From Haloarcula salina (GTDB lineage Archaea; Halobacteriota; Halobacteria; Halobacteriales; Haloarculaceae): a DNA stretch of 64,000 nucleotides. The position numbers and the translations under genes were made by a program. The stretch is taken from the NCBI RefSeq assembly GCF_010119195.1, contig NZ_WRXL01000001.1, positions 890,376-954,375 of the forward strand, in the 5' to 3' direction. Below the pieces are notes generated by a model. It searched no databases and was not told the DNA's origin. It worked only from the letters and a program-made list of their open reading frames with translations. Below, piece by piece: positions 48,351 to 63,770 of this stretch (its first letter is position 1; each line of letters starts with the position of its first letter).

Positions 48351-48764
48351 GTGACCCAAACCCTTCTCATCTACGACGGGAGCACTCGACTCTTTCGCGC
48401 CGCCGCCGAGACTGTTTCCCGCTTCACCGAGACCCTGACCCTCGTTCCCTGGGAATCCGACGCGGTGCAGGCGTTTCTCCGAGCGCAATTCGGCGACCCA
48501 CCGTTCGCTCTCGTTCTGATCGACGGCGACGCCGTCCACGTCGGTGAAGCGGCCGTCGGTCGCGCTCTCGACGACCTCGACGTGGCGAGGCCGGTCGCGG
48601 ACCTGGTGGAACAGCTGTACCCGGCCGTCGCCGCCCCGTTCGGCCGCGTCGTCCACGGAAAGGCTCCCGCAGATATACACGGGACGTTCAAACTGGACGA
48701 AGCGGCGGCGGCCCACATCGAATCGCTCCGCCGCGTGCACACGATTCCTGTCGATAGCGAGTGA
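48351..48764 (+). CDS. DCC (DUF393)-family protein lacking the active-site cysteines
   Basis: 137 residues from a GTG at 48351: MTQTLLIYDGSTRLFRAAAE. DCC proteins begin YDGxCxLC; here the motif is YDGSTRLF, so both cysteines are gone. The rest fits the family (LTLVPWESDAVQAFLRAQFG, ALVLIDGDAVHVGEAAVGRA). A thiol-oxidoreductase function is therefore unlikely. An in-frame ATG lies 309 bp upstream in non-coding-like sequence and is not used here. Confidence 0.65.
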   Translation: MTQTLLIYDGSTRLFRAAAETVSRFTETLTLVPWESDAVQAFLRAQFGDPPFALVLIDGDAVHVGEAAVGRALDDLDVARPVADLVEQLYPAVAAPFGRVVHGKAPADIHGTFKLDEAAAAHIESLRRVHTIPVDSE

Positions 48765-48911
48765 GACGGCTCTGTTGAAATCCTCGGCCGCGGATAGTTT
48801 TTCGCAGGAGCGCGCTGAATACAGAGCGCGAGTCGGTCACGAGCGAACTGCCCACGTCGAGCGGGAGAGGCAGGATATGAGATTATTACGTCAGAACCCA
48901 GTTTACAGCGT

Positions 48912-49097
48912 ATGCGCTCTTCCGTACAATCAATCCTGTTGATGGGATTTGGATTCATCTTCATCATCACTGGCGGGTTTCTGTTCACACAACTCTCGAC
49001 TATTTCATCGGGGCATGTCCGTCCACGGGTGCTGATCGCCGGGCTAATCTCGGTCGTTCTTGGCGGTGTGTTCCTCTACACGCTTGTGGATGCGTGA
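48912..49097 (+). CDS. Small two-helix membrane protein
   Basis: 61 residues with two hydrophobic segments (VQSILLMGFGFIFIITGGFL and VLIAGLISVVLGGVFLYTLV). No known family. It is the last chromosomal gene before the integrated element; the next 205 bp contain no gene. Confidence 0.65.
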   Translation: MRSSVQSILLMGFGFIFIITGGFLFTQLSTISSGHVRPRVLIAGLISVVLGGVFLYTLVDA

Positions 49098-49302
49098 GCC
49101 CTCAAAACCAAGTGCGTTCCCGTATCGGTACGTTCGCCCAACAACCGTAGCGAATCCACTTACCAGTGACCGAATGAAATATCTGAATGACGGTTGCTGA
49201 ACACAGCGGCGTTTGTATCAAATGTCATGGGTTTCGACGGGGCCAGTGAGACCGAATAGCCGGGGTGCCGATGGCGCTACCGCTCGTCGATGGGTTCGAA
49301 AG

Positions 49303-49319
49303 AAGCCAAGGGCCGGATT
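49303..49319. repeat. attL, left 17-bp attachment repeat
   Basis: AAGCCAAGGGCCGGATT, identical to 63694-63710. It is the reverse-strand copy of the tRNA-Cys 3' end, next to the integrase gene. Confidence 0.88.
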
Positions 49320-49360: not shown

Positions 49361-50587
49361 ATGACCGACGCCGACCCGAGCGAGGAAATACAGACACTCC
49401 GCGAGCGCCTGGAGAGCGGCGAGCGGGGAGGCAGTGACGCCGACCGCGACCGCCTGCTGGAGATGAGCGACAACATGCAGCTCATCCCATCGGAAATCGG
49501 TGACCATCGGCAGTTGAAGATCCTCCGGCACTGCACGCGGATGTCCGAAGAGGTCGACGACCTCGACCTCGTGGACGTCCTCGACGACGAGGAGGCCGCT
49601 CGCGAGGTCGTCCGCTGGATCCACCGAGAGTACGACAACGAGCACACGAATCAGGACTACCGGACCGCCCTGCGCTCGTTTGGCCGGTACGTCCTCGGTC
49701 GCGACGAACCGCCCGAAACGCTCGCCTGGATCCCGACCGGCACAAGTAACGACTTCGACCCTGTCCCGTCCGAGCGCGACCTGCTCGACTACGAGGCCGA
49801 TGTGAAGCCGATGGCCGAGGCCTGCCACAACACCCGCGACGCCGCCCTCATCATGGTACAGTTCGAGGCCGGACTCCGCGCTGGCGAACTCTACGACCTG
49901 GAAGTCGGCGATATCTTCGACGCCGAGCATACCGTCGGGATCCACCCGGATGGAAAACAGGGTGAAAAGCCGACCCATCTCAAGGTCGCAGTGCCGTTCT
50001 TGCAGAAGTGGCTCGCGGAGCACCCCGCTGGTGGTGACGTGGACGCGCCGCTCTGGAGCAAGATAAGCGACCCCGAGCGTCCTTCCTACAACACCTTCCT
50101 CGAATACTTCAAGCGCGCCGCCGACCGCGCCGGAGTCGACAAGCCAGTCACGCCGACGAACTTCCGGAAGTCGAACACTCGCTTCCTCATCCGTCTCGGG
50201 ATGGACCTCCCGAAGATCGAGGAACGCCAGGGACGCGAGCAGGGGAGTGAACACACGGCCCGCTACCTGGCCCGGTTCGGCGACGACTCGCTGGAACGGT
50301 CCTATGCCGCCCTCCACGGCGTCGACGTCGAAACCGACGACCACGACGAGGTCGCGCCGATCACGTGCCCGCGGTGTGATCGAGACACACCGCGTGACCG
50401 CGACCGATGCATGTGGTGTGGCTTCGCGCTCTCGCAGGAGGCCACCGAGGAAGCCCGCGCCGAGCGAAAACAGGCCCTCGAAGCGGTCAGCCAACTCTCG
50501 GCCCGCGACGATCTCGACACCGACGCCGTCGTCGATACAATCGACCGTCTCATCGACGAACGAGTCGACGCCCGACTCGATCAGTGA
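49361..50587 (+). CDS. Tyrosine recombinase (haloarchaeal SNJ2-like integrase) with C-terminal zinc ribbon
   Basis: 408 residues from the ATG at 49361. Catalytic Arg173 (EAGLRAGELYDLE), Arg269 (PTNFRKSNTRFL) and Tyr302 (TARYLARFG) are visible. The usual H-x-x-R box reads T-N-F-R, as in a haloarchaeal integrase subgroup. A zinc ribbon CPRCDRDTPRDRDRCMWC lies near 355, followed by a helical tail. It should catalyse integration and excision between the two 17-bp repeats. An in-frame upstream ATG at 49265 would begin outside attL and is rejected. Confidence 0.9.
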   Translation: MTDADPSEEIQTLRERLESGERGGSDADRDRLLEMSDNMQLIPSEIGDHRQLKILRHCTRMSEEVDDLDLVDVLDDEEAAREVVRWIHREYDNEHTNQDYRTALRSFGRYVLGRDEPPETLAWIPTGTSNDFDPVPSERDLLDYEADVKPMAEACHNTRDAALIMVQFEAGLRAGELYDLEVGDIFDAEHTVGIHPDGKQGEKPTHLKVAVPFLQKWLAEHPAGGDVDAPLWSKISDPERPSYNTFLEYFKRAADRAGVDKPVTPTNFRKSNTRFLIRLGMDLPKIEERQGREQGSEHTARYLARFGDDSLERSYAALHGVDVETDDHDEVAPITCPRCDRDTPRDRDRCMWCGFALSQEATEEARAERKQALEAVSQLSARDDLDTDAVVDTIDRLIDERVDARLDQ

Positions 50588-52740: not shown

Positions 52741-52835
52741 CTTGTTGTATTTGACCACCCTTAACACTTGTCCCATACGACAACTTGTCCTATACAACAA
52801 GTATTAAGTGATTGGGGATTGTTGTATCTAACAAG
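52741..52835. promoter_or_regulatory. Multi-site operator or iteron cluster
   Basis: The 9-mer TTGTTGTAT occurs at 52742-52750 (+), inverted as ATACAACAA at 52792-52800, and at 52819-52827 (+); ATACGACAA at 52775-52783 is a fourth copy with one mismatch. CTTGTTGTAT (52741-52750) and ATACAACAAG (52792-52801) form a perfect 10-bp inverted repeat. The cluster fills the 177-bp region between divergent genes. It could be a cooperative repressor site or replication iterons. Confidence 0.7.
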
Positions 52836-52909
52836 CACGGGAGTTCGGCCACGTAGAAACTGGCCGACGGGCGCTGGAACGCCCTCGACCGTGCTGCAGG
52901 ATAGCAGCA

Positions 52910-53500
52910 ATGTCCACCAAGGATACCGCGGCACTTCAGACTGCCGCCACGGCGGAGCGAATCGACGACCGAACGAAGCGCGCGCTGGAGGAGTACCTCA
53001 CGGTCACGCCCGACATCGGCCGCGCTCGCGGTGCGGACGACCTGGTCCTCGTGACCAGTGCCTCGGGCAAGGAGTACCTCGTCGACGTCCGCGGGGGCAG
53101 CTGTGAATGCCCCGATGCAACCCACCGCGACGTCGAGTGCAAGCACCAGATCCGCGCGAAAATGGCGCTGGGACTGGCGGCCGTGCCCGCCGGCGCGGCC
53201 GAGGCGTGCGACATCGACCCCGACCTCGGCCAGCACTGCGACGCCGAGCTGCGGTTTGCCGCCGCGGACGGTGGCGTGGTCTCGACGGCCAGCGACGAGG
53301 CGGCCGACGACGTCGTCGACCTGAGCGAGGAGCACGGCGAGGCCCCGATTGACGGGACGTGTATCGCCGGCCACGAACGCTGTGCTGGTATCTCGGGGAT
53401 GTACATGGGCGAGTTCCCCTGTGCGAACTGCTGGCTGTACGCGCCGGCCAGCGCCCACATCCACTTCCACGAGGCGACCGACAACGGGGGCGACCTGTAA
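52910..53500 (+). CDS. SWIM zinc-finger protein
   Basis: 196 residues. The SWIM motif is complete: SCECPDATHRDVECKHQIR (CxC...CxH), about residues 64-82. Downstream a second Cys/His-rich region (CIAGHERCAGISGMYMG and FPCANCWLY) could bind another metal. It is first in the rightward operon and starts 75 bp after the operator cluster. SWIM domains bind DNA or proteins and are common on haloarchaeal plasmids. Confidence 0.82.
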   Translation: MSTKDTAALQTAATAERIDDRTKRALEEYLTVTPDIGRARGADDLVLVTSASGKEYLVDVRGGSCECPDATHRDVECKHQIRAKMALGLAAVPAGAAEACDIDPDLGQHCDAELRFAAADGGVVSTASDEAADDVVDLSEEHGEAPIDGTCIAGHERCAGISGMYMGEFPCANCWLYAPASAHIHFHEATDNGGDL

Positions 53501-53634
53501 TGCCGGTCGAACAGGCCGCCGCCGGCGAGCGCGAGTACGCCACGCTGCAGTACGACGACGAGTTCGTCGTCTACCAGTGTGACCAAGAGCAGGCGTGGCT
53601 GCAGTCCGACACCGTCGTGGAGGTGCGCCAATGA
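53500..53634 (+). CDS. Small hypothetical protein (44 aa)
   Basis: ATG at 53500 overlaps the SWIM stop by one base (TAATG). It reads MPVEQAAAGEREYATLQYDD followed by EFVVYQCDQEQAWLQSDTVV. The next gene overlaps its TGA (ATGA). Compact beta-rich pattern. The coupling at both ends supports translation. Confidence 0.65.
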   Translation: MPVEQAAAGEREYATLQYDDEFVVYQCDQEQAWLQSDTVVEVRQ

Positions 53635-53891
53635 GGATGTCCACCACGTCCGTTGCCGAGGTCGACGCGACCGCGGAGTTCGACGACGGCGGTGTGTTGG
53701 CTGTGCAAACACACGAGCGCGACCTCGACTTGCGTGTGCAAGCGCCCGAGGAGCGCCCGCTGTCCGGCATTGAACCCCACGCCCAGCTCACCATCTCGGG
53801 CGCGGACCTGACCGTCGACGTCGTCCTCGATGCCGACGCGCTCGACGCACTCCTCGACGGGCTGCCAGTCGCCCCGCGGGGAGAATCATGA
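53631..53891 (+). CDS. Small hypothetical protein (86 aa)
   Basis: ATG at 53631 overlaps the previous stop; a second ATG at 53637 is possible. Predicted beta-sheet (EFDDGGVLAVQTHERDLDLR, LTISGADLTVDVVLDADALD). The next gene overlaps by 4 bp. No family recognised. Confidence 0.68.
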   Translation: MRMSTTSVAEVDATAEFDDGGVLAVQTHERDLDLRVQAPEERPLSGIEPHAQLTISGADLTVDVVLDADALDALLDGLPVAPRGES

Positions 53892-54307
53892 CCGACGACG
53901 GTGACGAGGATCGCGAGACCGAGCGGGTGAGTGCGCGGACGTACGTGCCGGCCTACCAACGCGATATCTGGGACGACCACGCCGACCGCTTGGATATGTC
54001 CCGCTCAGAGTTTATCCGCTCGATGGTGCAGGCAGGCCGTCGGGGATACACCGGTGAGGACATCGGCGAGACGCCCGGCGCGGGTGACGCTGGCGACGAC
54101 CGCTTGCCAGCCATCGCCAGCGACGCCGTCCTCACGGCCCTCGAACAGGTCGACACCGTCCGCTACGAGGAGCTTCGGGAGATCCTGGTCGAGGACATGA
54201 CGCGGGCGCTCGACGCCGCGCTTGACGAACTGCAGGCGGAGAACGCCATCATTCACACTCGCGACGAGGGGTACACGCTCGTCGACGACTCGGGAGGGGG
54301 CCGATGA
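53888..54307 (+). CDS. RHH plus winged-helix regulator (DUF5805-like)
   Basis: 139 residues. The N-terminal VSARTYVPAYQRDIWDDHAD and RLDMSRSEFIRSMVQAGRRG form a ribbon-helix-helix. The C-terminal half (DTVRYEELREILVEDMTRAL, ALDELQAENAIIHTRDEGYT) is winged-helix-like. It is a probable DNA-binding regulator of the element. Overlaps both neighbours by 4 bp. Confidence 0.8.
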   Translation: MTDDGDEDRETERVSARTYVPAYQRDIWDDHADRLDMSRSEFIRSMVQAGRRGYTGEDIGETPGAGDAGDDRLPAIASDAVLTALEQVDTVRYEELREILVEDMTRALDAALDELQAENAIIHTRDEGYTLVDDSGGGR

Positions 54308-54594
54308 CGCTCGTCATCGAGGACGCCGGCGACGGGGATTTCACGCTGTTGGTCACTGACGACGGCGCTGTCGAAGCCCGCAAGCGCATCCCCTACGACG
54401 GCGTCCTGCGGTTCACGACCGAGACGCGGGCCCTGCCAACGGGACGACAGACCAGCAGCCAGTACGGGCTCGGTGTCGACGACGTCATCGAGCGCTACCA
54501 GGCCCGCACTGACACGGAGACCCCGCGGGTCGAACTCGCCGAGTCCGTGGCGCAAGCACTGCGCGCCGTGCACCAGGAGGGGCAGGATGCCTGA
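54304..54594 (+). CDS. Small hypothetical protein (96 aa)
   Basis: Starts within the previous stop (ATGA) and extends 8 bp past the next start. MTLVIEDAGDGDFTLLVTDD suggests beta strands, with a helical tail ELAESVAQALRAVHQEGQDA. No family recognised; operon position is the only clue. Confidence 0.7.
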   Translation: MTLVIEDAGDGDFTLLVTDDGAVEARKRIPYDGVLRFTTETRALPTGRQTSSQYGLGVDDVIERYQARTDTETPRVELAESVAQALRAVHQEGQDA

Positions 54595-55060
54595 CCGGCG
54601 TGCGTTCCTTGAGGCCGCCGCGCTCGTCGCGACGACACCACTGCCCGGCGGTAACGACACAGCTGCCGACGACGACCCCGCGACCGCCGAGTGCGACATC
54701 TGCGGTGCGGCCAAGCCCGCCGGCATGGTCGACCGGACGACGGTCGACCCCATCGCGCCCCTGGAGGCGGATATCTGTGCAGTCTGTCAGTTCGTGCAGA
54801 ACCACGCGCTGGCCGACGGCGTCTGTGACGAGTGCGGTGACCCCGCCGAGCCCGGCTTTTCCATCGAACTGGAGTATCCGCTGGGGGAGGCGAACCTCCC
54901 AGCGTTCTCGGCCTGGGAATTGTGTGGCGACTGTGTCAGTTGGATCGCGTCGGATATTGCCTACCGCGGGGTCGATGCTGACCCCGAGGCCAAGGAAACG
55001 TATGTGGACCTGATTGACGCCCAGCACGAGCGAGGGGCGGACCAGGAGGGGTCAGAGTGA
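54587..55060 (+). CDS. Four-CxxC zinc protein
   Basis: 157 residues from the ATG at 54587. After a hydrophobic Tat-like start (MPDRRAFLEAAALVATTPLP, lacking a full twin-Arg motif) come CDICGAAKPAGM, CAVCQF, CDECGDPAEPG and CGDCVSW, eight cysteines for two zinc sites. It overlaps both neighbours. Function unknown; nucleic-acid or protein binding is plausible. Confidence 0.7.
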   Translation: MPDRRAFLEAAALVATTPLPGGNDTAADDDPATAECDICGAAKPAGMVDRTTVDPIAPLEADICAVCQFVQNHALADGVCDECGDPAEPGFSIELEYPLGEANLPAFSAWELCGDCVSWIASDIAYRGVDADPEAKETYVDLIDAQHERGADQEGSE

Positions 55061-55197
55061 CGCCTGCTCGATCTGAGCGCGCCGACACCGTCGGCATCGC
55101 ACGACTCGCTACGGCCCATTCGCGCGCGATTCGGTCAAAAAAGTCGGAGGAGGAGCTGCCCGTGATAGCTCCGGACACAGTGGGGGCCGAACAGTGA
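55057..55197 (+). CDS. Probable micro-protein (46 aa), coupled
   Basis: GTG at 55057 overlaps the upstream TGA (GTGA), and its own TGA overlaps the next GTG. It reads MTPARSERADTVGIARLATA and continues HSRAIRSKKSEEELPVIAPD. No homologue recognised. The double 4-bp overlap in an operon built of such overlaps is the evidence. Confidence 0.45.
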   Translation: MTPARSERADTVGIARLATAHSRAIRSKKSEEELPVIAPDTVGAEQ

Positions 55198-55274
55198 GCC
55201 GCATCGGCCCCAAGAGCGCCACCGCTGCCTGCGAGGCTGGGGCCCGAAGCGACCGTCGGGAGTGGTCGCGATGA
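55194..55274 (+). CDS. Possible micro-protein or leader (26 aa)
   Basis: GTG at 55194, reading MSRIGPKSATAACEAGARSD and ending with TGA at 55272-55274 that overlaps the ATG of the TnpB-like gene (ATGA). It may exist mainly to couple translation of that gene. Weak evidence. Confidence 0.3.
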   Translation: MSRIGPKSATAACEAGARSDRREWSR

Positions 55275-55897
55275 GTTCTACGCCAGCGCCGGCGAGTGGG
55301 GCTGCCCCGACGTCGGACCACACGCCGATTGGTGTCGACCTCGGCGAGAAGCGCCTGGTCGCCGCCGCGCCGGCTGACGCCGACCCAGACGCGGCGTTGG
55401 TCATCGACGGCGACCCACTGCGAGAGCGCTACGACCTGCTCGTCGAGGCGACGCACGCCCTCCAAGCGGCGTCGTTCGACACCACCGCCGGCGAGGCCCA
55501 GCTCTTCGCGGCGCTGTACGAGCGGCTTCGACCGGCCCTATTCGACGCGGCGCATCGGTTGGTTCGGTACGCCGACGAGTTCGCGACGCCGCTGTTGGTC
55601 CTCGAAGACATGGACTTCGGCGGACCCTCGCTGTGGGAACGGCGGACAGTCGACGAGATGGGCGCGTGGCTTCTGCCGGCGCTGCAGGCAGTAATCGTCG
55701 AGGTTGCGCGTGACGCTGGGCTGCCTGTCACGTTCGTCGACGCGAAGTACACGAGCCAGGCCTGCCACGTCTGTGAGAAACTCGGCCGACTCGACAGCAA
55801 CGCTATCGTGTGTACGACCGATGACTGCCCGGTCGAACGCGTCTGTCGGGATCGGAGTGCTGCGCTGACGATTGCCCGGCGCGCTGGGCCATCCTGA
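55271..55897 (+). CDS. Miniature TnpB-like (RuvC plus zinc ribbon) protein
   Basis: 208 residues, about half the usual TnpB length; the N-terminal WED/REC half is absent. RuvC-I Asp23 (IGVDLGEKRL), RuvC-II Glu112 (LLVLEDMDF), the zinc ribbon Cys165/168/181/186 (YTSQACHVC and CTTDDC) and RuvC-III Asp194 (CRDRSAALTIARR) are all present, so nuclease chemistry may survive. There is no TnpA and no IS end, and it is the last gene of the element's rightward operon, coupled by ATGA to the preceding frame. A stem-loop follows its stop. It may be a domesticated nuclease or RNA-guided regulator; transposase activity is unlikely. Confidence 0.82.
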   Translation: MSSTPAPASGAAPTSDHTPIGVDLGEKRLVAAAPADADPDAALVIDGDPLRERYDLLVEATHALQAASFDTTAGEAQLFAALYERLRPALFDAAHRLVRYADEFATPLLVLEDMDFGGPSLWERRTVDEMGAWLLPALQAVIVEVARDAGLPVTFVDAKYTSQACHVCEKLGRLDSNAIVCTTDDCPVERVCRDRSAALTIARRAGPS

Positions 55898-55940: not shown

Positions 55941-55984
55941 ACTAACCAACACACTCGGCCATTCGCAGCCGAATGTTGGTTAGT
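55941..55984. promoter_or_regulatory. Long stem-loop after the TnpB-like gene
   Basis: ACTAACCAACA (55941-55951) and TGTTGGTTAGT (55974-55984) are perfectly complementary over 11 bp; inside, TCGGC (55955-55959) pairs with GCCGA (55968-55972). It lies 43 bp after the TnpB-like stop and 26 bp before the next ATG. It could be a guide-RNA scaffold, an operator for the downstream gene, or a replication hairpin. Confidence 0.6.
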
Positions 55985-58536: not shown

Positions 58537-58763
58537 TGGAACATTCCGGCGGGGTCGCTGTCGATTTCTTCGGGGCTGTACTCCGGCGTCGCTTGCTCGT
58601 CGAGTTCGGTGGCGAGCGTGCCGACCTTGCCGGTGAGCGTCTCCAGCAGGCCGATGATGGACTGTATCTGTTCTGCGTTCTCCGCCGGCGTCGGGGCGGT
58701 GGTTTGTTCTGCGGTCTCAGCGTCGTCGTCGCCGAACTCCGAGAGGGTCGTCTGGTCCGTCAT
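58533..58763 (-). CDS. Hypothetical acidic protein (76 aa)
   Basis: MTDQTTLSEFGDDDAETAEQ start, then a predicted helix IQSIIGLLETLTGKVGTLAT. The ends overlap both neighbours by 4 bp. Function unknown. Confidence 0.68.
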   Translation of the reverse strand: MTDQTTLSEFGDDDAETAEQTTAPTPAENAEQIQSIIGLLETLTGKVGTLATELDEQATPEYSPEEIDSDPAGMFQ

Positions 58764-58945
58764 CGCTCCTCTCGCTCCGGGTCAACTGTCTGGAACTGTG
58801 GCCCGGTGCCGTCAGCGTTCGTTTCGTAGGTGACGAAGTCTGCAGTGACGCCGAGGCCAACGTCGGTGACGTCGCCACCACAGTCCGGATCGTCGATGAG
58901 ATTCTCGATCGAGCGCTCTATCTCCCGCTTCGATTTGCGAGTCAC
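58760..58945 (-). CDS. Tandem paralogue 3 of the MTRxSKREIER family (61 aa)
   Basis: Begins MTRKSKREIERSIENLIDDP, matching the two genes upstream. The C-terminal part (LGVTADFVTYETNADG) differs from its paralogues. Overlaps neighbours by 4 bp. Confidence 0.72.
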   Translation of the reverse strand: MTRKSKREIERSIENLIDDPDCGGDVTDVGLGVTADFVTYETNADGTGPQFQTVDPEREER

Positions 58946-59172
58946 GAGTCCTCACCCCCGGCAGTGAAATCCGCGACGAGGCGGACGTCGTCGGCGCTGT
59001 CGAGGCCCGGAATATCTGCCACCGTCGCTTCCTCGATTCCGTCGTCGGTGACCCGGCCCCACACCTCTCCGTCGCCGTCGGTAAACACCATCTCGTCGAA
59101 CTCTGTCCCGTCGCTGTCGACCTCGATGTCGTCGAGCGCGCGCTCGATCTCACGCTTCGAGCGGCGCGTCAT
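58942..59172 (-). CDS. Tandem paralogue 2 of the MTRxSKREIER family (76 aa)
   Basis: Begins MTRRSKREIERALDDIEVDS. A beta-rich acidic C-terminus follows (EMVFTDGDGEVWGRVTDDGI). Same conserved basic helix as its neighbours on both sides. Confidence 0.75.
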   Translation of the reverse strand: MTRRSKREIERALDDIEVDSDGTEFDEMVFTDGDGEVWGRVTDDGIEEATVADIPGLDSADDVRLVADFTAGGEDS

Positions 59173-59393
59173 TGGTCTCGCTCCCAGTCAGTCGGGACCA
59201 CGATGTCGTTGATCACGATGTCCTGAGACGCGCTGGTTTCGATGTCGTGCTCAGTCTCGTGGACACACTCGACTGGGTCACCGTCTTCGTCACCGCGCCA
59301 CTCGCGGAATGTCACGGTGGCGACGCCGGTATCTGGCGAGTCGTTGAGGTCTTCGAGCGCGCGCTCGATCTCCCGCTTCGATTTGCGGGTCAT
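59169..59393 (-). CDS. Tandem paralogue 1 of the MTRxSKREIER family (74 aa)
   Basis: Starts at the ATG at 59393 (MTRKSKREIERALEDLNDSP), overlapping the upstream stop. The basic N-terminal helix is followed by an acidic beta-rich part (VATVTFREWRGDEDGDPVEC). The longer upstream frame is Arg-rich and a shadow of the next gene. Confidence 0.75.
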   Translation of the reverse strand: MTRKSKREIERALEDLNDSPDTGVATVTFREWRGDEDGDPVECVHETEHDIETSASQDIVINDIVVPTDWERDQ

Positions 59394-59689
59394 GACGACA
59401 CCCCACTGGGCCCGACGACGTCGCCGTCGGCACGTTCTTCGAGCTGCTCGATGCGCTCGGTCAGTTCCTGCAGGTCGCGGTCGGCCATGACCTTCCGCTT
59501 CTCCGCGACGACGTCCTTCGCGATGCGGATCCACTTGATGCGCACCCGTTCGTTCTCGGCGTCGTACACGCGCCCGCTCTCAACCTTCCGGAGCGCCTCG
59601 GTCTCCAGCATGTCGAGCGTCGCGAGTAGGTCGTCGTAGCTGTCGGCGACGTCCTCTTCGCGGGCGTGGGCGCTCGCGTCGTCGGTCAC
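59390..59689 (-). CDS. Coiled-coil protein conserved on haloarchaeal elements (99 aa)
   Basis: From a GTG at 59689. SYDDLLATLDMLETEALRKV and RVRIKWIRIAKDVVAEKRKV, ending in a leucine-rich coiled coil ELTERIEQLEERADG. I recall similar proteins on other haloarchaeal plasmids and proviruses; function unknown. Confidence 0.72.
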   Translation of the reverse strand: MTDDASAHAREEDVADSYDDLLATLDMLETEALRKVESGRVYDAENERVRIKWIRIAKDVVAEKRKVMADRDLQELTERIEQLEERADGDVVGPSGVSS

Positions 59690-60139: not shown

Positions 60140-60334
60140 TCAGTCCGTGATGTCCTCGCCGGCGTGGTCAAGATGGAGCGTACAGTAGGCGACGCCAGCC
60201 AGCGCGTCGCGTTCGCACCGTTCACTCGTCGAGACGGCGATAGCCTTGCACTGGCCGGTAAACTCATCAAGCCGTAGCTGTCGCTCGTCGGTGGGGGCCG
60301 AAGGCCCCCACGGATCGGGGTCAGTCTGACTCAT
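60140..60334 (-). CDS. Small Cys/His zinc protein (64 aa)
   Basis: From the ATG at 60334, overlapping the replication-protein stop by 14 bp. QCKAIAVSTSERCERDALAG followed by VAYCTLHLDH has the spacing C...C...C-x-x-H of a small zinc finger seen on many mobile elements. Confidence 0.75.
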   Translation of the reverse strand: MSQTDPDPWGPSAPTDERQLRLDEFTGQCKAIAVSTSERCERDALAGVAYCTLHLDHAGEDITD

Positions 60335-63300
60335 TTGGCGGTGGGCCACTTCCCGTTGGGACGTGCTCGTCACTCGTTTCGGGGGAACCGCCCCTGTCCG
60401 GGGTTGACACCCCCTCCGTTTCGGCTGGAGTGCGGAACTGCCACGTATAGGTACTACTACGCGCCAGTTCCGCACTTTCCTCGGCGCTCAACTCCTCGAG
60501 GTCGACCGGCGTGAGTTCGACTGCGCCGTGGTCGCCCAGCCGGTGCAGGCCGCCGTCGCGCCAGACGAACCCACAGCCATCGGTCTCGCGGTCGACGACG
60601 TCGTGCTCCTCGGCGAGTGTCGTGAGGTGGGCCCGGACCTGCCGCTCGCCGATCTCGACGTCGGGATGGGAGGCGATGTCGGCGGTCGTCCACTCCCCAA
60701 GGTCGGCCGCGGCGTCGACGACCTGGCGCATCCCGTCACTCCAAGTGGTGAGCACGCGCCCCTCGTCGGCGATGGGAACCCAGTCCGGCAGCGTGTCCGT
60801 GTGGACGTAGACGACGGCCCCGTTGCCGTCGCGGCCGAAGCGCATCGCCGCCTGGAGCGTGTCGTGCTCGCGCATGTGCGTCAGCACGCGGTCGCCGAAC
60901 CCCGTGTACGACAGCCCCGCACCCTTCTCGGCGTTGCGCTCGACGGCCTCGCCGGCGTACGCGCCCCACTTCTTGATGAACCGATCGCCGTAGTGGTTCG
61001 ACCCGATCACCGCGCCCAGGCGGGTCTCCTTGAACTCGTTGGACCCGAGGACGTTCCCGTAGTGTTTCGTCTCGTCGACGAGGTCGAGCACGCCCGCGGC
61101 GTCGTACTCGCCTTCGGCCGTCGAGGACGTGATGAGCGACGGCCGCTGGTCGTGGGCGTCGGCGATGCCCTCCAGCAGCGCGGCGTCCTGATCGACCGTG
61201 ACGTGGTCAGCGCTGTTGTAGGGCTTGACCGCGTCGGTCGTCCGCACGAGATTCAGGTTCAGCACGTCGGCGACGTACTCGCTCCGCTCGGCGTCACTGA
61301 GGACCGATCGAAGCGAGAGCCGCACCCCGAGGGAGAGCTCCCACATGCGCTTCGTGGGCGTCCCGTCGAGGGCGACGACGCCACTTGCGTAGTCGAGACT
61401 CGGCGGCTGGAGCAGCGACACCTCGCCCGTCTCGCGGTCGAACGTGGCCGTGCCGGCGTCCTGCAGGTCGGCGGTCTCGAAACCGTTACCGAGGTCGTCG
61501 CCGGCGAGGATCGCGAACGCGGCCAGCGGGGCCGCGGCGTGGGCGCTGTCGTCGTCGAACACCAGGGACTCTGCCGTGTCGAGCGCATCTCCATCATCGT
61601 CGAGGAACCACGCCAGCGCATCGGCACGCCGGCCATCGTCATCGCGGTGCTCGATGAGGTCCGTGTAGTCGTCGAACGGGACGGCGTCGACGGTCGACAG
61701 CCAGTAGCTCACTGCGCCCTGGAGCCAGTTGCCCGACAGCGACGTCTCGTAGGCCCCGTCGGGGAACTCGTCGAACACGACGGTCCGCCCGGTGGTGACC
61801 TTCTCCTTGTAGGCGTGCGTGTAGTGCCCGATCAGCACGTCAATCGGGACGTCCTCGTCGGCGTCGGCGCTGCCATCGGTCTCGGGGTCGAAGTTCCACA
61901 GGTGGGCGTACTGACAGCCGACGTGACTACCTTCGTCGTCGACCTGGCAGGGGAGCGGCTTCCCGAGGACGTCCTCGGCGAACTTGTGGATGGCTTTCGG
62001 CGTCGCCCCGCGGCGATACCAGTCCATCACCATCTCGCGCCACTCGTCGCCGTGGTCGCCGGCGGCCGTGGGGCAGTCGTGCGTGAACGACGGGAGTTCC
62101 TTGTACGTCAGCCCGTGTTCGTCGCACCACTCCGTGAGCTGCGCGTACTGCTCTTTGCGCCCGCGCCCGGTGAGAATCGTCACGGGCTCGCCGGTCTCAG
62201 CAGCGGCGGCGATTGACCCGTAGGACTTCCCCATCGTCGGGAGCGCCTCGACGAGGACCTGGTCGTTGCGCTGGTAGGCGTCGGCGATGGCCTCGGTCGT
62301 GCGCTCGCGAGCGTCGGTGATCGAGAGACTCGACGCGTCGCGACCAGCGTGGTGCCAGTCCCAGCCCGAGGTCGCCGTCTCCAGGGCATCGCGTCCCGGT
62401 AGGACGGCCGTGTGGCCGATGTCGCCCTCGCTGGGTTCGAACTCGGGGATGTGCGCGCCGCGATCGCGAAGCGCCTCGACGGCCTCCCAGAAGTCTGCGC
62501 CACTGGGATACTCCGTCTCGGTGGTGATGATGCGCTCTTCGAGAGCGACGACCTGGAGCGCGTCGAGGCCGACCATGCCCTTGCGGTAGACCCAGCCGTC
62601 GCCGACCTGAGCCAGCCGGGTTCCACTTTTACTCTGGGCCCAGGCGGGATCCATCGACGTCGTCCCGTCGGACCGCTCCTGCGTGACCGTCGAGCGCAGG
62701 CGGATGTCACGCGGGCCCGTGTGCTGGATGGCGTCGAGGACGTCCTGCATGTCGCTGGTCGTCTCGACGTCGGCGATCTCGGCGGCAGTCTTCTCGGGCT
62801 CCTGGATCAGCTCGTCGGGCGTGCCCTCGGCGACGGTGGTGTACTCGTCGGCGAGGTCGTCGATGAACTGCTGGCAGCGCGTGGTCTCCGTCGGCGTCGA
62901 CGCGATGTGCGTGCCGGTCATCGCGACGAACCGGGCGGAGTCGTATACCTCGATCTCCGCATCGGAGAAGTCGGGATCCTCGGGGAGGTGCGCCTCGATG
63001 GATTTGACGCCATCGGGGAGCTGCCCGCGACAGAGGATGTGGACGCCAGTCCCACTCGTCGAGACATCGGCGTAACTGTCGGCTCGCTGGAGGTGCTTGC
63101 GAACAGTCTGGTGGATCTCGCCAGTCTCGGGATCGCGTGCGTCGTCGTAGTCGACGAGGACGAGGTCCGTGTCGTGCTCGTCGCGGTCGGGGATGTTGTA
63201 CGCGAGGTCGAACCCGGAGAGTTTGTCGAGCCAGGCCTGGGCCGTTTCGAGGTCGACCCAGACGTCGGGATCCTGGGCGCTGACGAACGCATCGCCGCCG

Positions 63301-63554
63301 GTCACCCACGGAGCCCGAGGCACCTTTCGCTCGTCGTCGGTTTCCTTCCAGGCGATCCAGCGCTCGCGGCCTTCGAGGTCGGCCGGGAGAACGCCCGTCT
63401 CGACGGTCGACGGGGCAGGATCGCCACCGTCGTCCTGCTCGACCGTCTTCTCTGAGGACCGCCCCTGCAGTCGGGCGAGACAGTCGTCACAGAGGTAGCT
63501 GTTACCGTCGACGTTGTCGGGGGGACCGCCGCAGAGGTGGCACTCGGCGGTCAC
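60321..63554 (-). CDS. Primase-polymerase / helicase fusion, probable replication initiator
   Basis: 1077 residues from a GTG. Zinc finger Cys5/Cys8/Cys22/Cys25 at the N-terminus. An AEP-like prim-pol domain (about 55-235) has Asp135 and Asp137 (VLVDYDDARD), SGTGVHILCRG with His172, and EIEVYDSARF near 202-205. A helicase-like half follows: Walker A ALPTMGKSYG (about 436), Walker B TVVFDEFPDG (about 590), motif VI-like QAAMRFGRDG (about 905), and a C-terminal winged helix (ADIASHPDVEIGERQVRAHL). It should initiate replication of the element. Its start lies 140 bp after tRNA-Cys on the same strand. Confidence 0.82.
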   Translation of the reverse strand: MTAECHLCGGPPDNVDGNSYLCDDCLARLQGRSSEKTVEQDDGGDPAPSTVETGVLPADLEGRERWIAWKETDDERKVPRAPWVTGGDAFVSAQDPDVWVDLETAQAWLDKLSGFDLAYNIPDRDEHDTDLVLVDYDDARDPETGEIHQTVRKHLQRADSYADVSTSGTGVHILCRGQLPDGVKSIEAHLPEDPDFSDAEIEVYDSARFVAMTGTHIASTPTETTRCQQFIDDLADEYTTVAEGTPDELIQEPEKTAAEIADVETTSDMQDVLDAIQHTGPRDIRLRSTVTQERSDGTTSMDPAWAQSKSGTRLAQVGDGWVYRKGMVGLDALQVVALEERIITTETEYPSGADFWEAVEALRDRGAHIPEFEPSEGDIGHTAVLPGRDALETATSGWDWHHAGRDASSLSITDARERTTEAIADAYQRNDQVLVEALPTMGKSYGSIAAAAETGEPVTILTGRGRKEQYAQLTEWCDEHGLTYKELPSFTHDCPTAAGDHGDEWREMVMDWYRRGATPKAIHKFAEDVLGKPLPCQVDDEGSHVGCQYAHLWNFDPETDGSADADEDVPIDVLIGHYTHAYKEKVTTGRTVVFDEFPDGAYETSLSGNWLQGAVSYWLSTVDAVPFDDYTDLIEHRDDDGRRADALAWFLDDDGDALDTAESLVFDDDSAHAAAPLAAFAILAGDDLGNGFETADLQDAGTATFDRETGEVSLLQPPSLDYASGVVALDGTPTKRMWELSLGVRLSLRSVLSDAERSEYVADVLNLNLVRTTDAVKPYNSADHVTVDQDAALLEGIADAHDQRPSLITSSTAEGEYDAAGVLDLVDETKHYGNVLGSNEFKETRLGAVIGSNHYGDRFIKKWGAYAGEAVERNAEKGAGLSYTGFGDRVLTHMREHDTLQAAMRFGRDGNGAVVYVHTDTLPDWVPIADEGRVLTTWSDGMRQVVDAAADLGEWTTADIASHPDVEIGERQVRAHLTTLAEEHDVVDRETDGCGFVWRDGGLHRLGDHGAVELTPVDLEELSAEESAELARSSTYTWQFRTPAETEGVSTPDRGGSPETSDEHVPTGSGPPPNESD

Positions 63555-63693: not shown

Positions 63694-63710
63694 AAGCCAA
63701 GGGCCGGATT
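63694..63710. repeat. attR, right 17-bp attachment repeat within tRNA-Cys
   Basis: AAGCCAAGGGCCGGATT; positions 63695-63710 are the last 16 nt of tRNA-Cys on the minus strand. Identical to 49303-49319. Confidence 0.88.
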
Positions 63711-63770
63711 TGAACCGGCGATGGGCGGCTCTGCAGGCCGCTGCGTTAGGCCGGACTCTGCCACCTTGGC
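63695..63770 (-). tRNA. tRNA-Cys(GCA)
   Basis: 76 nt. Acceptor GCCAAGG/CCTTGGC, anticodon arm GCGGC-CTGCAGA-GCCGC with anticodon GCA, and T arm GCCGG-TTCAAAT-CCGGC. It follows 5S rRNA as in haloarchaeal rRNA operons. The integrated element reconstitutes its 3' end. Confidence 0.97.

Follow-up and report, generated by a model that had tools for sequence, protein, structure and literature searches.

What might a descendant of TnpB do once it has kept the half of the protein that is predicted to cut and shed the half that binds guide and target? The question is raised by a 64,000-nucleotide (nt) stretch of Haloarcula salina DNA (contig NZ_WRXL01000001.1, positions 890,376 to 954,375; hereafter the window), in which an open reading frame (ORF) on the plus strand at 55271..55897 encodes a half-length TnpB homologue of 208 residues, here termed mini-TnpB, made up of a RuvC domain and a TNB zinc ribbon. 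TnpB is the ancestor of Cas12, and, to our knowledge, the TnpB and Cas12 proteins described so far unite guide binding and cutting in a single chain. An earlier, sequence-only reading of the window had listed the catalytic residues D23, E112 and D194 and four zinc cysteines (C165, C168, C181 and C186), all of which are present as stated. It had also held that the N-terminal half, which in TnpB comprises the WED and REC domains, is lost, and this was confirmed by profile searches: Pfam PF07282 (Cas12f1-like TNB) matches mini-TnpB with 30.9 bits (E 3.2e-7; cut-off 26.3), while the NCBIfam model guided_TnpB aligns only over model positions 196-389 of 389 (32.2 bits; cut-off 100), with no N-terminal match upstream. 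Likewise, a comparison with TnpB/Cas12 RuvC folds that the same reading had proposed gave a predicted model that superposes on the C-terminal half of TnpB/Cas12f, the closest folds being halves of RNA-guided Cas12f and TnpB proteins. Finally, the reported absence of TnpA was borne out by a Y1_Tnp search that found no Y1 transposase in the window's genome and was positive in 5 of 14 named genomes. Since both the N-terminal half and TnpA are absent, mini-TnpB is, judged from its sequence, a descendant of TnpB and, by the tests applied here, not a TnpB itself. Solo-TnpB elements also lack TnpA, and the window's genome contains a longer TnpB-like frame of 349 residues (locus L017; G000:C1:675094-675594), although the Y1 transposase was not found there.

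The explanation that we favour, giving it a little short of an even chance, is that mini-TnpB is a detached, TnpB-derived RuvC nuclease subunit: as it keeps the predicted cutting half without the guide- and target-binding half, it would need proteins from the same operon to aim it. In one lineage the partners would be the Cas7-like (Cas7L) and Cas5-like (Cas5L) proteins of the haloarchaeal RAMP system (HRAMP), which may supply RNA and target binding while mini-TnpB cuts. In a second, plasmid-borne form that includes the window, a protein with eight cysteines and the small proteins adjoining it may take the aiming place; these are the window's candidates because no Cas7L or Cas5L gene lies beside mini-TnpB and a search of the genome for Cas7L was negative. 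Two articles describe HRAMP as an array-less derivative of type III CRISPR whose most frequent nuclease partners are HNH and PD-(D/E)xK enzymes (PMC8730458, PMC12669027).

Mini-TnpB is one member of a family. A search of 5.8 billion proteins, which admits only proteins of 0.55-1.75 times the query length, returned 42 proteins of like design at E<=1e-3 (window copy included), 40 of them with 190-225 residues. Six-frame searches of 392 genomes, which place no length restriction on matches, located at least 19 mini-TnpB places in 15 genomes, with open frames of 171-275 residues and E values from 4e-108 to 2e-43; this count is a lower bound, with seven candidates scored per genome and weaker matches listed in part. 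Most other matches are TnpBs with frames of about 400 residues, at E 1e-42 or weaker. Half-length and full-length matches were separated by frame length and not by score alone, because the E value of a 430-residue frame in genome G224 (1.9e-44) lies in the range of the half-length frames; three frames of 254-268 residues (G275, G339 and G203), with scores that fall among those of full-length TnpBs, stand outside the half-length count, and a twentieth short place, in G313, is a decayed full-length TnpB. The relatives are thus also half-length, and not full-length proteins set against a frameshift in the window, a comparison that the sequence-only reading had called for.

The catalytic D/E/D is kept in 35 of the 42 proteins, so that the family-wide loss of catalytic residues that the same reading had considered is not seen; five proteins have S/A/G, P0042 has N/E/D and P0033 is truncated. 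The five, which lie on short contigs, form a branch (P0030, P0035, P0036, P0037 and P0041) in which all three catalytic residues have been exchanged together for S, A and G. In P0042, either a fusion or a deletion product, a SWIM-like domain is joined straight onto mini-TnpB and the first catalytic Asp is replaced by Asn. The four zinc cysteines are kept in 40 of the 42 proteins, and Tyr replaces Cys181 in the plasmid-type locus L064. Codon comparisons gave ratios of nonsynonymous to synonymous substitution (dN/dS) of 0.18-0.28 in 12 of 12 cases (the pairs share sequences; dS is 1.2 for the window versus L057), and the family is, by this measure, under purifying selection. The N-terminal parts of 15 TnpB frames had no match within the 2.5 kb or less upstream of 27 of 28 loci (L009 and L013 offer 2.4 kb only); the sole locus with such a match, L065, is a decayed full-length TnpB. 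It was set aside together with L004, which groups with full-length TnpBs in the tree, and with the broken or truncated L013, L015, L055 and L058. In a tree that leaves out L013, L015, L055, L058 and L065, includes only the best-scoring full-length rows and is rooted at the midpoint, the split between half-length and full-length rows has moderate support (87/81).

Two genomic contexts can be told apart among the 19 listed places. In eight of them a Cas7-like gene lies directly downstream, its frame starting before the mini-TnpB stop, and the annotation of Halomicrobium urmianum has the same overlap; Natrialba magadii is another carrier of the HRAMP form. The Cas7-like protein measures 287-288 residues in five of these eight places and is broken in three; in a ninth, in G220, only the Cas5-like gene remains and mini-TnpB is interrupted by a stop. 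The downstream trio consists of Cas7L, a middle protein and Cas5L, and was assigned to HRAMP from gene content and profile matches: Cas7L matches Csm3 (E 1.9e-4) and, below cut-off, Pfam RAMPs (E 0.008), and Cas5L matches Cmr3 (E 1.3e-7). Cas7L is present in 91 of the 392 genomes and has 522 relatives at E<=1e-3; among the 120 listed, two are named "CRISPR-associated RAMP" or "Csm3" by their sources. The plasmid-type context, which has no Cas genes, accounts for a further eight places (the window, G157, G248, G046, G268, two in G370, and G337), and the named plasmids pHG4 and pCBA1220-04 carry mini-TnpB in this context as well. The remaining two places, both in G306, retain the small upstream gene only. 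In the tree the HRAMP-linked rows form one group, with pHG4 within it, nested among plasmid-type rows with moderate support. A search for CRISPR arrays (repeats of at least 24 nt, at most 120 nt apart) found none in 6.5 kb of the HRAMP-type locus L047 and, in the element that houses the window's operon, only two-copy repeats whose copies are 71-78% alike.

Other genes recur around these loci. A divergent DDE transposase of about 600 residues, for which NCBIfam ISH3 is the best match though below cut-off, lies upstream of several HRAMP loci (L047 5124-6917, L048 and L052), and traces of it occur near HRAMP loci that lack mini-TnpB. Two divergent HRAMP loci (L199 10513-11199, and L200) have, after Cas5L, a gene whose RNase H-like match narrowly misses the Pfam cut-off; a further RNase H-like gene lies near the pHG4 mini-TnpB (L001 15582-16253).

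Some components are common to both contexts. The eight-cysteine protein, whose four CxxC motifs are invariant in 11 sequences, was found at 11 places in 9 of the 392 genomes; all eight places with E<1e-60 lie within 400 bp of mini-TnpB (seven upstream, one downstream), three in the HRAMP context and five in the plasmid context, and the three weaker places are not near mini-TnpB. The small protein s144 has nine strong places, four of them within 2 kb of mini-TnpB and two directly upstream of Cas7L.

A structured leader RNA is likewise shared. In the window it occupies 52831..52912 of the plus strand and combines a three-way junction with a start-codon hairpin, its last bases doubling as the start codon of the first gene in the operon. 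No Rfam 15 family matches it at E<=1, and it is not described in the literature searched (titles and the opening parts of abstracts). A covariance model was built from eight sequences (alignment A7), in which 96.3% of cells are paired, a value reached by 0 of 500 shuffles; five of the 20 pairs changed on both sides, which is marginal (23 of 500 shuffles as high), and further pair types, one of five measures, were no better than shuffles (356 of 500). The model finds the leader in 99 of 372 genomes at E<=1e-4. Among 39 fitted sequences, 14 of the 20 pairs changed on both sides, with 0 of 500 shuffles reaching 14 and slid structures reaching 1 to 6, in an alignment that leans towards the structure. 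In 36 of the 39 leaders a stem of at least six pairs, G-U allowed, is possible for the bases immediately ahead of the start codon; with shuffled tails, a mean of 15.6 and a maximum of 22 of the 39 reach five pairs. By inspection, these bases would pair with the 3' strand of the helix that closes the junction, and, as the two helices cannot both form fully, the arrangement suggests a translational switch, whereby the leader would gate translation of the gene chain through two competing helices.

The leader lies within 3 kb upstream, on the same strand, at 24 of 120 Cas7L places (two of these being pieces of one gene), with none on the opposite strand and none downstream; the leader search covered 372 genomes and the Cas7L search 392. 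It is present at 9 of the 19 listed mini-TnpB places, and it directly precedes the first gene of haloarchaeal mobile-element, HRAMP and some virus operons, abutting the start codon in nearly all cases inspected. The idea that it serves as an HRAMP-specific guide is weakened by this position and by its presence in viral loci (6 of 80 at E<=1e-5).

Several observations weigh against a partner-aimed nuclease. The window's operon has no Cas7 gene, and a Cas7L search of its genome, which is an estimated 99.96% complete, was negative. Only one of the seven genomes that host plasmid-type mini-TnpB (G370) has Cas7L, which makes dependence of the plasmid form on a resident HRAMP unlikely in general; for the window, use of such a system in trans was rejected on the negative Cas7L search. 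HRAMP itself is mostly found without mini-TnpB, with eight loci among 120 Cas7L places, and the nesting of HRAMP-linked copies among plasmid-type ones means that the original role may be unrelated to HRAMP. The candidate partners raise doubts of their own: 11 of the 19 listed places yielded no eight-cysteine protein; 7 of its 11 aligned copies (window, L001, L047, L048, L052, L057 and L008; not L003, L059, L061 or L063) have a Tat-like start (RRxFLxAAA), odd for a cytoplasmic nuclease partner; and its structure model is poor (pLDDT 56, below use for a fold search). Three of the nine strong s144 places are near neither mini-TnpB nor Cas7L. Finally, the six leader-bearing viral loci belong to viruses with neither system, so the leader is not peculiar to them; the 80 loci are a non-random sample, being part of 92 stretches chosen for a palindrome.

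That palindrome, ACTAACCAACA/TGTTGGTTAGT at 55941..55984 of the window, lies 43 nt past the mini-TnpB stop and recurs in haloarchaeal viruses and plasmids. It forms a stable hairpin (z -6.3) for which Rfam has no match. The sequence-only reading had noted no insertion sequence (IS) end here, although no exhaustive search for ends was made; the one striking palindrome nearby is this motif, shared by many viruses and plasmids. Its general form, TAACCAACA-N(10-30)-TGTTGGTTA, is often present several times in such elements (L003, L001, L061 and L106); there are three copies in a 55,145-base viral contig and four in pCBA1220-04, and the exact arms occur once in the window's genome.

The nearest rival to partner aiming holds that mini-TnpB is a guide-independent nuclease that serves the plasmid without partners; its substrates might be intermediates of replication or recombination, in the way that junctions are resolved by cellular RuvC. 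Such a role is on the unlikely side but deserves attention: the plasmid-type context is the more diverse in the tree, has no Cas genes, and includes an integrase, ParA or primase in the stretch of 9 of 10 loci (the eight genome places plus pHG4 and pCBA1220-04), and at 2 of 28 loci, the window and L003, the gene is followed by the palindrome, which could form a cruciform. The palindrome is, however, widespread in elements without mini-TnpB, the closest folds are halves of RNA-guided proteins, and the HRAMP lineage has the gene within a Cas7/Cas5 operon. The same shared operon suggests cooperation and not inhibition, which counts against a binding protein, regulator or decoy that would, for instance, block TnpB or HRAMP, whether the host's or a competitor's. 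The branch with S, A and G at all three catalytic positions favours such a role, as does the description of TnpB-related TldR proteins as RNA-guided transcription factors (PMC13418256); nevertheless, the triad is kept in the window copy and in 35 of the 42 proteins, and the occurrence of HRAMP in one of seven plasmid-type host genomes is neutral. We regard a non-cutting role as improbable, and the "RNA-guided regulator" of the sequence-only reading finds no support for the window copy, whose triad is intact, the one five-member branch without it notwithstanding.

Less probable still, and in our view quite remote, is a nuclease still guided by its own RNA, either the leader or the 3' hairpin, bound through the RuvC/TNB half alone. 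The hairpin's stability and the conserved leader at the operon head would fit it. The 3' hairpin is nonetheless disfavoured as a guide, its motif occurring in 92 stretches of viral contigs and 26 of 28 loci having no such palindrome behind the gene; the leader abuts the start codon nearly always and occurs without mini-TnpB; and in the HRAMP lineage the mini-TnpB stop overlaps the next start, so that a 3' guide would have no non-coding stretch to occupy. Names given by sources, such as "IS1341-type transposase", might instead suggest that the gene is what is left of a decaying IS200/IS605 or IS1341 insertion. That reading is barely credible and was rejected: half length is family-wide, no N-terminal half lies upstream, dN/dS is about 0.2 and the overlaps with neighbouring genes are precise, and the same upstream test does detect a true remnant, L065.

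Returning to partner aiming, the window's candidates lie in an unbroken chain of nine ORFs (52910 to 55897) in which neighbouring frames share 1, 4 or 8 nt; the translational coupling that had been claimed is therefore stronger than described. All are on the plus strand. The chain opens with a SWIM-like zinc-finger protein of 196 residues (52910..53500; phrog_17897, with Pfam SWIM below cut-off), followed by a 44-residue ORF (53500..53634), a small protein of the s81 family (53631..53891; 86 residues), a 139-residue small protein (53888..54307) that matches DUF5805 above and RHH_1 below the Pfam cut-off, and a 96-residue protein of the s96 family (54304..54594) that is also found in L057 and L061. 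The eight-cysteine protein comes next (54587..55060; 157 residues, with four CxxC motifs and a Tat-like N terminus). Between it and mini-TnpB lie a 46-residue ORF (55057..55197), whose position is occupied by s144 or s105 in several relatives, and a 26-residue ORF (55194..55274) that overlaps the mini-TnpB start (ATGA).

The operon is housed in what is likely a 14.4-kb integrative plasmid inserted at tRNA-Cys. Two plus-strand copies of a 17-bp direct repeat, AAGCCAAGGGCCGGATT, mark its left (49303..49319) and right (63694..63710) attachment sites, the latter overlapping the 3' end of tRNA-Cys (63695-63770, minus strand); among 266 random 1.5-kb pieces, the longest chance match was 11 bp. The two copies enclose a tyrosine integrase (49361..50587, plus strand, with the ATG at 49361 chosen from the sequence as its start), the operon, a series of small ORFs on the minus strand, and a primase-like replication protein (60321..63554, minus strand). 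A protein encoded by an 8.9-kb plasmid of Halorientalis litorea matches this last one at 64.7% identity over 97%. Integration is argued by the repeat, the integrase and the tRNA-Cys flank, which is seen in 18 of 21 genomes, the window's own included. An empty attachment site was not found, the left flank (48700-49300) matching only short pieces in 20 other genomes. The stretch 58760-59534 holds three adjacent small minus-strand ORFs with related MTRKSKREIER-type stretches, together with 56-nt repeats spaced 221-227 nt. A "domesticated nuclease" in a mobile-element operon, as the earlier reading had it, is supported by the conserved half-length family, intact residues, purifying selection, shared operon and element ends. 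Its further proposal, an anti-competitor factor, is a possible role: the plasmid's benefit may be interference with competing elements. Neither mini-TnpB nor the S/A/G branch was found in viral contigs with patterns made from few peptides.

Comparison with known systems sets mini-TnpB apart from each. It resembles IS200/IS605 TnpB and Cas12f in its RuvC fold with D/E/D and its TNB zinc ribbon, and differs from TnpB in lacking the N-terminal half, in a genome without TnpA, in its multi-gene operon and, in the HRAMP lineage, in leaving no 3' room for a guide RNA. With HRAMP it shares the Cas7-like and Cas5-like neighbours of one lineage, s144, the leader and the lack of a CRISPR array; the window's operon has no Cas7 or Cas5, so the window locus is not HRAMP. 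The array-free element also separates it from type V CRISPR-Cas (Cas12). Like TldR, it is a TnpB descendant on mobile DNA, one branch of which is also without the triad. The test for TldR is an inactivated triad in a near full-length TnpB, whereas the window's mini-TnpB is half-length with the triad intact; TldR keeps the guide-binding part and loses cutting, and mini-TnpB does the reverse. IsrB and IscB are small RuvC proteins of mobile elements that keep RNA-binding domains; unlike them and other compact RNA-guided nucleases, mini-TnpB, at about 208 residues, is RuvC and zinc ribbon only. A search of titles and the opening parts of abstracts on HRAMP with TnpB, truncated TnpB, and haloarchaeal TnpB/RuvC found no description of the half-length family; the founding HRAMP paper of Makarova et al. 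(2019), whose abstract reportedly mentions "various nucleases", lies outside that coverage, and prior mention there is possible.

A wider proposal, plausible although rather doubtful, is that a Cas5/Cas7 scaffold of class 1-like type captured a class 2-type cutting half: HRAMP would recruit a RuvC subunit that shed its guide-binding half, and plasmids would carry the same detached nuclease and the same RNA switch as a weapon, with the eight-cysteine protein aiming. If true, a cutting half standing alone in a Cas5/Cas7 operon would demonstrate that modules can pass between the two CRISPR classes, and HRAMP would gain a testable nuclease. The plasmid-borne form would offer a minimal, predicted RuvC nuclease of 208 residues whose aiming mechanism may be approached partner by partner, and the leader RNA would provide a handle on how these operons get switched on.
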